From positions 1-34,397 of the IMG/VR virus record IMGVR_UViG_3300048580_000073: a stretch of 34,397 nt of DNA; one strand, given 5' to 3'. Below, in pieces: positions 6,844 through 8,182 of the stretch. This DNA is from a virus. Positions within the stretch are counted from its first letter, which is position 1; the number at the start of each line of letters is the position of its first letter. Under the pieces are notes generated by a model. It was not told the DNA's origin and did not search any database. It worked only from the letters and a program-made list of their open reading frames with translations. A program made the translations under genes and the position numbers.

Positions 6844-7188
6844 ATGATAGAACTAAATTTACCCTACCCGCCAAGCGTAAATACTTATTGGGGTTTTCGT
6901 GGATCGCGGCGGTTTATGACTAAGACAGCTAATGACTTTAAGCTAATAGTTAACCTTGCCGCTAAACGAGCTAGGTTTGGCGATGACAAAGTAGGTCTGG
7001 AGATATTGCTTCATGCACCTGACCGTAGGCGTAGAGACATAGATAATGTACTTAAGCCGCTTATAGACGCTCTACAGGCTGCTGGCGTGTTTGATGATGA
7101 CTCTCAGGTAGACCAGTTGATGGTAGCGCGTGGCAGCGTGATTAAAGGCGGTTCGTGCCTAGTCAAAATAAAAAGTTTACAAGAGTAG
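6844..7188 (+). CDS. rusA: RusA-like Holliday junction resolvase
   Basis: 114 aa. It begins IELNLPYPPSVNTYWG, the RusA start pattern. The catalytic aspartates appear in RRRDIDNVLKPLIDAL (D65, D67, D75) and in the DDDSQVDQL segment (D90). It resolves branched intermediates, so concatemers and recombination products can be packaged. It is the first gene of the rightward early operon. The ATG has no obvious Shine-Dalgarno sequence within 15 nt, so start efficiency is uncertain, but the conserved N-terminus supports the start. Confidence 0.93.
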   Translation: MIELNLPYPPSVNTYWGFRGSRRFMTKTANDFKLIVNLAAKRARFGDDKVGLEILLHAPDRRRRDIDNVLKPLIDALQAAGVFDDDSQVDQLMVARGSVIKGGSCLVKIKSLQE

Positions 7189-7250
7189 AAATTTAATCTA
7201 TTCTTACTGCATTGGGTTTAGTGAACCTGATGACAGGAAGGGAGTCAGTT

Positions 7251-7361
7251 ATGCAATTCAGTATCTTTAACGGTGAGACAAGGGCTTTCAGCCTACCCCT
7301 TTCTATGGTTGTAATCCTGTCGGCTCACTACCGGCTCTCACCGTTAAGGATATTGTTATGA
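7251..7361 (+). CDS. 36-aa leader peptide ORF coupled to the replication gene
   Basis: ATG at 7251 is preceded by a strong, long Shine-Dalgarno sequence (AGGAAGGGAG). The frame stays open for 36 codons through the whole 7262-7352 stem region. Its TGA (7359-7361) overlaps the ATG of the DUF1376 gene (7358). The peptide has a hydrophobic middle (FSLPLSMVVILSAHY) and a basic C-terminus. No family is recognised. The likely role is in cis: ribosomes reading it would open the stem that hides the downstream ribosome site. A peptide function is not excluded. Confidence 0.6.
   Translation: MQFSIFNGETRAFSLPLSMVVILSAHYRLSPLRILL
7262..7352 (+). promoter_or_regulatory. RNA stem that sequesters the replication-gene ribosome site
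   Basis: Bases 7262-7277 and 7337-7352 form a 16-bp stem in RNA with a single G-U pair. The 3' arm contains AAGGA (7346-7350), the Shine-Dalgarno of the DUF1376 gene at 7358. The 59-nt interior can form a further AAGGG/CCCTT hairpin. A leader ORF with its own good ribosome site runs through the stem, as in translation-coupled replication control of IncFII/IncB-type plasmids. The stem is read directly; the control role is inference. Confidence 0.6.
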
Positions 7362-8182
7362 GTGCAACCCCGTGGTTTAAGTTTTATCCCGGCGATTACA
7401 AGTCAGATACAGGTAGATTAACTACCGTTCAGCATGGTGCTTACATATTGCTGTTGCTAGATTACTACGCGACAGGAGAAGCGCCGCCTAATGATGATGT
7501 TGTTTTAGCTAAGATTACATTGTGCGACTCGCAGAATGAGTGGTTTGCGATACGCAAAGCTATCGCACGACATTTTGAGATAACTGACGTTTGGAAGCAT
7601 GAACGCTGCGAGAAGGAATTACTTGCCAGAAGTGCTGAACACACTAAAAAGAGTGAGGCTGGCAAAAAAGGTAATGAAATCAAGTGGGGAGTATCGCAAA
7701 GCGAGTCGCAAAACAGCCATTCTGCGATACGCAAATCTATCGCAATACCAGAAGTCAGAAGTCAGAAGTCAGAAGTCATAGATCAGAACTTAGAAGTCAG
7801 AAGTCAGAAGTCAGAATCAAAAGAATTTAAGTCAAAAGAGTTGCGCGAAACGCGCTTAATTATTCCCCCAATTCAGATTCCTGATTGGATTCCTGTAGAC
7901 GCATGGAATGACTTTGTAGACTCTAGGAAGAAACTTAGGAAGCCGCTAACTCAAGGTGCTATAAAACTGGCTATCTCTACTCTGAGCAAGCTAAAGTCTG
8001 AAGGTAACGATCCTAAAGAAGTTATAGAGCAATCAATCCTGAGTGGTTACAGTGGTCTGTTTCCCGTCAACAAGGGTAAGCAGTCAATTACAGACCAGAA
8101 CCGGGCCGTTGGAGAAGCATTCAAATTAAAACTACGTCAACAAGATCAACAATCACAAGGAGAAACCTATGAACACGAGTGA
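7358..8182 (+). CDS. DUF1376 replication protein
   Basis: 274 aa. The N-terminal DUF1376 domain (about 3-90) shows TPWFKFYPGDYKSDTGRLT, QHGAYILLLLDYYATG and the C-terminal KKSEAGKKGN stretch; it is typical of phage replication initiators. Residues 131-154 are a low-complexity Arg/Ser/Gln/Lys/Glu linker encoded by 7-bp iterons. A second helical domain (about 175-235, IPVDAWNDFVDSRKKL to SILSGYSGLFPV) follows. It probably binds the origin inside its own gene and hands over to the loader-like protein encoded next. Overlaps that gene by 14 nt. The start is overlapped by the leader ORF stop. Confidence 0.85.
   Translation: MSATPWFKFYPGDYKSDTGRLTTVQHGAYILLLLDYYATGEAPPNDDVVLAKITLCDSQNEWFAIRKAIARHFEITDVWKHERCEKELLARSAEHTKKSEAGKKGNEIKWGVSQSESQNSHSAIRKSIAIPEVRSQKSEVIDQNLEVRSQKSESKEFKSKELRETRLIIPPIQIPDWIPVDAWNDFVDSRKKLRKPLTQGAIKLAISTLSKLKSEGNDPKEVIEQSILSGYSGLFPVNKGKQSITDQNRAVGEAFKLKLRQQDQQSQGETYEHE
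7546..7567 (+). repeat. 22-bp dyad repeat, copy 1 (origin candidate)
   Basis: TGCGATA and TATCGCA arms (7 bp, perfect) are separated by 8 bases. A second copy with one mismatch lies at 7723-7744. Both lie inside the DUF1376 gene and encode the similar peptides AIRKAIA and AIRKSIA. The dyad plus repetition suggests binding sites of the initiator. Confidence 0.6.
7723..7744 (+). repeat. 22-bp dyad repeat, copy 2 (origin candidate)
   Basis: Second copy of the TGCGATA-N8-TATCGCA dyad, 177 bases after the first and identical except for one base in the spacer. It ends five bases before the first heptamer iteron, so dyad and iterons form one continuous block. Confidence 0.6.
7749..7818 (+). repeat. 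Ten tandem 7-bp iterons, likely replication origin
   Basis: Seventy bases divide exactly into ten heptamers with consensus CAGAAGT. The order is four perfect copies, CATAGAT, CAGAACT, TAGAAGT, two perfect copies and CAGAATC. As 7 and 3 share no factor, the coded peptide repeats every seven residues (EVRSQKS pattern). An iteron array inside the initiator gene followed by AT-rich DNA resembles the lambda O/ori arrangement. The repeats are seen; origin function is inference. Confidence 0.7.
7843..7860 (+). other. GC hairpin and AT-rich stretch beside the iterons
   Basis: GCGCG-AAA-CGCGC (7843-7855) is a perfect 5-bp palindrome, directly followed by an AT-rich stretch. It lies 25 bases after the iterons. 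It could be part of the unwinding region of the origin, or simply coding sequence for ELRETRL. Confidence 0.4.

Follow-up and report, generated by a model that had tools for sequence, protein, structure and literature searches.

How is a phage replication gene expressed when its ribosome site is buried in a stem, and why does a short open reading frame run through that stem up to the next start codon? These questions are raised by a DUF1376 gene in a 34,397-nt stretch of viral DNA (IMG/VR record IMGVR_UViG_3300048580_000073; hereafter, the window). Our analysis indicates that the replication-gene mRNA probably carries, as its 150-nt leader, a translation-driven two-state RNA switch, similar in operation to the RepY-RepZ control of plasmids. 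The component features are collected in Table 1.

Table 1. Features of the leader and of the controlled gene in the window. The z and p values of the cognate-versus-shuffled tests are inflated by the relatedness of the variants.
Feature	Positions	Strand	Evidence
Predicted sigma70-type promoter TTTACA-17-TATTCT, predicted start ~7211	7176..7204	+	promoter scan
Hairpin I, predicted mRNA 5' end: TTGGG (7212-7216)/CCTGA (7226-7230), loop 7217-7225	7212..7230	+	99% of cells paired; 3/5 pairs with changes on both sides
k1, loop sequence TAGTGA, partner TCACTA in hairpin d	7219..7224	+	cognate vs shuffled z 5.5, p 2e-5
a, AGGAAGGG, leader ribosome site, predicted to pair with a' (7297-7304)	7235..7242	+	cognate vs shuffled z 5.6-6.0, p 1e-5; covariation
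Leader ORF, 36 codons, MQFSIFNGETRAFSLPLSMVVILSAHYRLSPLRILL, stop TGA overlapping the next ATG	7251..7361	+	open in 21/21 variants
b, 5' arm of outer stem	7259..7278	+	94.5% of cells paired with b'; 10/20 pairs with changes on both sides
c, small hairpin GGCTTTCAGCC	7283..7293	+	100% of cells paired; one pair with changes on both sides
a', CCCTTTCT, partner of leader ribosome site	7297..7304	+	cognate-versus-shuffled and register tests
d, hairpin GTCGG/CCGGC, loop CTCACTA, with k1' TCACTA at 7325-7330	7319..7335	+	100% of cells paired; loop covaries with hairpin I loop
b', 3' arm of outer stem, with AAGGA 7346-7350	7336..7355	+	accessibility 0.00-0.02 in 20/20 variants
Controlled gene: DUF1376 protein, predicted O-like/primosomal replication protein, 274 aa	7358..8182	+	PF07120, 64.7 bits; PHROG matches

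The sequence-only reading of this locus had noted a 16-bp near-perfect inverted repeat with the DUF1376 ribosome site in its 3' arm. The repeat is real and in fact spans 20 nt (b:b'), with 18 Watson-Crick and 2 G.U pairs and 57 nt between the arms, and is the top short-range inverted repeat of the window. The ribosome site AAGGA indeed lies within the 3' arm, 7 nt 5' of the ATG at 7358, and its computed accessibility in the window is 0.00. Of 200 dinucleotide shuffles of the region 7225-7400, 198 fold less well as RNA than the native sequence (z -2.64).

Relatives of the element were sought in IMG/VR contigs with the DUF1376 protein and with DNA patterns of the stem region, and 21 distinct variants were identified; the contigs include no isolate. 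Loss of the stem or of the 36-codon frame in relatives had been named as an observation that would overturn the earlier reading; both are kept in all 21 variants, and the covariation of the stem, proposed as a check, is apparent in the alignment (Table 1). One column pair of the stem (79/173) is G-U in 20 of 20 variants and another is U-G in 16 of 20, which argues for an RNA structure rather than a DNA palindrome. The stem b:b' was also put through the cognate-versus-shuffled test, with the inflation noted in Table 1, and was counted as support for the preferred explanation.

The variants fall into three sequence classes, A (window-like), B (L008-like) and C (L015-like), with L105 and L020 as recombinants. 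The element usually lies 3' of rusA and, in class C, 3' of another gene. Among 80 fetched loci, 28 match the covariance model at 141-197 bits, all of them with RusA of at least 79% identity, and loci with RusA relatives at ≤61% identity gave no match. The genes downstream are of differing kinds, among them various DUF1376 types, an HNH-like gene and small ORFs with 47, 61 or 68 codons, several of them non-homologous; the element is therefore a portable control module. The HNH-like gene (MIKYCAKCQVETERK...) follows the element at L020:1449-1631 and L185:1847-2029, which suggests insertion of an HNH gene at the start of the replication operon in these two contigs. Rfam searches gave no match at E≤1 in window positions 6900-7700 and none at gathering for L014, L015 and L105; blastn found no match to the element in isolated phages, nor one to the L015 element in 72,556 plasmids. 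Seven matches from a pattern scan of GTDB genomes all proved on inspection to be chance, and the viral pattern matches L054, L075 and L076 were discarded on inspection as lying outside the family.

The claim that a leader ORF passes through the stem and ends with a stop overlapping the next start held up. Its ATG at 7251 is preceded by GGAAGGGAG, and its TGA at 7359-7361 overlaps the ATG at 7358-7360 (ATGA). Across the 21 variants, the leader frame contains no stop, compared with 18 and 31 stops in the other two frames. Leader length varies from 31 to 37 codons, and the stop, counted from the next ATG, falls at -14, -5, -4 or +1 in 20 of 20 tabulated variants and at -4 in L020. Insertions between the ATG and the stem come in steps of 3 nt (8, 11 and 14 nt), and a 1-nt indel between L004-type and window-type variants re-frames the C-terminal part of the leader, with the ORF still ending at the next start. 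In class B, the leader ribosome site is weak. At variable sites, nonsynonymous differences predominate, and a selected leader peptide was rejected because these sites show no third-position excess. Judging from this pattern, leader translation is kept and the leader peptide is not.

DUF1376 is the sole Pfam match of the controlled protein, which also matches the PHROG families 'primosomal protein' and 'replication initiation O-like' (2e-28 and 8e-19), in keeping with its earlier designation as a replication gene; the next gene 3' weakly matches a helicase-loader family in PHROG. By its family membership, the DUF1376 protein would start replication. Its linker (EVRSQKSEV...) contains in-frame repeated AGAAGTCAG units (window 7745-7815) and is possibly length-variable, with relatives differing there. 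The C-terminal 110-120 residues are kept and the N-terminal domain is swapped in L011, L014, L019, L016, L017 and L021 relative to the window (7820-8182), with ~90% identity to the window in the C-terminal part in L016, L017 and L021; therefore, the control element and the C-terminus stay while the N-terminal part changes.

Other kinds of RNA leader were seen near DUF1376 genes. A different covarying 5' RNA lies directly before another DUF1376 type (L084:2880-3006, L088:1138-1263, L089:2881-3006, L092:2885-3006, L119, L125, L155 and others). It consists of TATAAT followed by GAAACaCGGC ... GCCGttGTTTC with an inner hairpin and a possible CTCCC/GGGAG pseudoknot; it has 18 consensus pairs, 9 with double changes, and no Rfam match at gathering. 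A related short RNA, 'GGGCTAGG..CCGAAAA..', occurs between rusA and DUF1376-type or other genes (L195, L204, L214, L215, L223:1877-1943, L229, L232, L237), and in L223 it scores just below the Rfam int-alpA threshold (34.0 versus 35.8 bits). The loop of its second hairpin (for example TAGTCAA, CATCAC or TCGTTAC) could apparently pair with sequence close to the next ribosome site (TTGACTA, GTGATG and GTAACG). A third kind, also before DUF1376 genes (L115, L123:2830-3000, L130, L136, L141), is attenuator-like: a long stem, GGGCTTCACATGCTAACT ... AGTTAGCAGGTGAAGCC, has an ATG inside it and precedes a T run.

The sequence-only reading was incomplete: stem and leader were rightly described, and hairpin I, the covarying loop-loop pairing and the pairing a:a' were absent from it. 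The predicted promoter is the only promoter-like site in 7050-7500, and in 20 variants with flanking sequence it scores 10.3-11.4, with the start just 5' of hairpin I; therefore, hairpin I is predicted to form the 5' end of the mRNA. One column pair of this hairpin shows six pair types. Across the variants, its loop and that of hairpin d are complementary over 4-7 bp; examples of the alleles are TAGTGA/TCACTA in the window, TAGTAAC/GTTACTA in L013, GATAA/TTATC in L004, GCAA/TTGC in L008, ACAA/TTGT in L015 and GTAA/TTAC in L070. Cognate k1:k1' pairs beat shuffled ones, and only 2 of the 40320 permutations of 8 alleles are equally good, a result inflated, like the other shuffle tests, by the relatedness of the variants.

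The leader ribosome site has a putative partner of its own, a', ~55-60 nt downstream. The pairing a:a' is found in one fixed register in all three sequence classes, with six pairs changed on both sides; examples are ACGAGGTAT/ATACCTCGT (L015), AACGGAGTA/TGCTCCGTT (L048), AAGAGGTAT/ATGCCTCTT (L105), AGACA/TGTCT (L008) and AGGCA/TGCCT (L039). In the alignment of 20 variants (A2), 14 of the 35 consensus pairs show compensatory changes. When the structure is made explicit and the loop-loop pairing is counted in, the share of paired cells is 91.7%, compared with 39-48% when partners are slid by 1-3 columns, and 20 pairs have changes on both sides. Gaps in A2 are misplaced in the leader ribosome site and in the class B loops, so that a:a' was counted by hand register and the pair counts for k1:k1' are conservative. 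Overall, the predicted structure of the element is well supported by the aligned sequences.

In full folds of the 20 variants, the DUF1376 ribosome site is closed (Table 1) and the leader site has an accessibility of 0.48-1.00. In transcripts ending before b', the accessibility of the leader site drops to 0.00-0.40, and 16 of the 20 variants give 5 or more expected pairs for a:a'; in the window itself, a:a' is weak even without b' (1.1 expected pairs by nearest-neighbour folding). Full folds are 4.7-15.4 kcal/mol better than those with most of b' masked, and masking turns the fold over only in part, since the seven uppermost outer-stem pairs tend to survive it. The helices k1:k1' and a:a' nest one within the other, and both cross b:b'.

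We propose that the switch would operate in five steps. In the resting fold, b:b' would bury the DUF1376 ribosome site and leave the leader ribosome site mostly free. A ribosome would then translate the leader through the stem and terminate at the DUF1376 start or shortly before it; translation itself, and not the peptide, would be what counts. These two steps rest on covariation and ORF conservation; the other three, and with them the switching logic, we infer. The terminating ribosome would keep b' open and either re-initiate or admit a new ribosome, giving coupled synthesis of the replication protein. Behind it, two pairings would form, k1:k1' between the loops of the 5' hairpin and hairpin d, and a:a' over the leader ribosome site; being nested and crossing b:b', these two helices would favor the open state of the replication gene and close the leader. 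Finally, k1:k1' and a:a' would part, b:b' would re-form and the gene would be off again, so that replication protein would be made only in limited, leader-licensed bursts. We infer this relay from the fold accessibilities and the nested helices crossing b:b'; that the loop-loop pairing would activate is borrowed from plasmids and is the weakest step.

The diversity of the loops could also point to a partner in trans. There are 8 loop alleles among the 20 variants, with 8 changes on a backbone tree built without the loops, and their partners are kept, as if a trans RNA selected new specificities; the loop columns have high entropy (1.03). A small antisense RNA, from the opposite strand or from elsewhere, would then bind the 5' hairpin and block leader translation and the pseudoknot, like Inc RNA or RNAI of IncI, IncB and IncL/M plasmids, and the loop alleles would be incompatibility groups. 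However, when the phage elements were scanned for sigma70-type promoters, the minus strand showed no conserved one next to hairpin I, whereas the same scan recovered the R64 counter-transcript promoter as a positive control (TTGAAT-17-TATACT, score 12.4, start adjoining hairpin I). Moreover, no terminator-like site was found on either strand, the loop complement has no second copy elsewhere in the window, and the stem of hairpin I is just 5-6 bp. The antisense RNA suggested earlier is thus unlikely.

The preference of truncated transcripts for a:a' and the energy advantage of the full folds would also suit a kinetic timer: folding during transcription would begin with the 5' hairpin, a:a' and hairpin d, the DUF1376 site would emerge open, b:b' would shut the gene later and the leader ORF would only set the balance. 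Alone, however, a timer leaves the always-open leader frame and the stop near the next AUG unexplained, and we give it little credence. A stem with an overlapping stop and start is a common textbook arrangement of translational coupling, and the stem and leader might simply link the DUF1376 gene to the upstream ORF, the other pairings being incidental; yet two further helices covary in fixed register, which makes plain coupling very improbable. A DNA-level element (operator, origin or mobile repeat) mistaken for RNA, although it might adjoin replication genes and occur before different genes as this one does, can be dismissed almost entirely in view of the conserved G-U pairs, the open reading frame and the loop-to-loop pairs.

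The proposed two-state switch has its counterparts among IncL/M and I-complex plasmids, in which replication is controlled by leader translation, a pseudoknot and an antisense RNA (PMC8125031, PMC10286972). The phage element shares with IncI-alpha/IncI1 repY-repZ (ColIb-P9, R64), IncB and IncL/M repB-repA the order of parts (5' hairpin, leader ORF, loop partner upstream of the leader stop, and a leader stop that overlaps or adjoins the rep start) as well as a stem hiding the rep ribosome site. Under the same analysis, R64 has hairpin I at 302-352, the pseudoknot TGGCGGAACGA/TCGCTCCGCCA at 326-336/431-441 and repY at 378-467, overlapping the rep start at 455. In these plasmids, rep expression depends on leader translation and the pseudoknot (PMC8125031, PMC10286972), and the phage element appears to resemble them in form: its leader ends at the replication-gene start as an open frame in 21 of 21 variants, its stem covers the ribosome site by accessibility and covariation, and its 5' hairpin loop would form a pseudoknot with a site just upstream of the gene, as indicated by complementarity and covariation. 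Unlike the plasmid systems, the phage element has a very short 5' hairpin, a loop partner within its own hairpin and a covarying partner for the leader ribosome site; it resides in phages, its initiator is unrelated, with DUF1376 rather than a RepA/RepZ homolog as the only Pfam match, and no antisense promoter was found in the sigma70-type scan. The phage-element model R1 has no match in the R64 region. Since leader and pseudoknot match in form, the antisense RNA failed as tested, and RNA sequence and initiator are not shared, we suggest that the element works like RepY-RepZ control without filing it as a member.

IncFII/R1 tap-repA likewise has a translated leader coupled to rep. To our knowledge, it is without a pseudoknot, and the antisense RNA CopA is central to it, whereas no CopA-like antisense RNA was found for the phage element. 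The sequence-only reading had named IncFII and IncB-type plasmids as analogues; given hairpin I, the covariation of its loop with that of hairpin d and the helix hiding the leader ribosome site, IncB, together with IncI and IncL/M, is the right analogue and IncFII is not.

Likeness extends in part to two further systems. REx-C control modules of Pseudomonas plasmids combine a leader, whose product is dispensable, with stem-loops and are joined to non-homologous replication genes (PMC5304414); like the phage element, they are portable, but they are plasmid-borne, have a putative antisense RNA and in some cases lack the leader (PMC5304414). In timP/TimR and tisB mRNAs, a covarying loop-loop pseudoknot is needed for translation, and the folds are mutually exclusive in timP (PMC11228461). 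Both features recall the phage element, but these are toxin genes with an sRNA partner, for which a translated-leader drive is not described (PMC11228461). In the openly accessible literature, we found no phage example of such leader control.

Leader-peptide and pseudoknot control of replication is already known in a few enterobacterial plasmid groups. It is conceivable, though far from assured, that the phage elements form a self-contained family of RNA switches, in which the leader and replication-gene ribosome sites are hidden in folds that exclude each other and a passing ribosome switches between them with no antisense RNA involved, and in which diversifying kissing-loop pairs serve as tags of specificity, including between phages that infect the same cell, giving rise to replication incompatibility groups. 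Direct tests are within reach because the loops covary, a second helix covaries on the leader ribosome site and no antisense RNA is evident: is leader translation sufficient to set the timing of phage replication, and do loop alleles decide which phages co-replicate? If true, a control logic equivalent to that of the plasmids, but assembled from unrelated sequence ahead of phage O-like genes, would have arisen more than once and would be portable between initiators.
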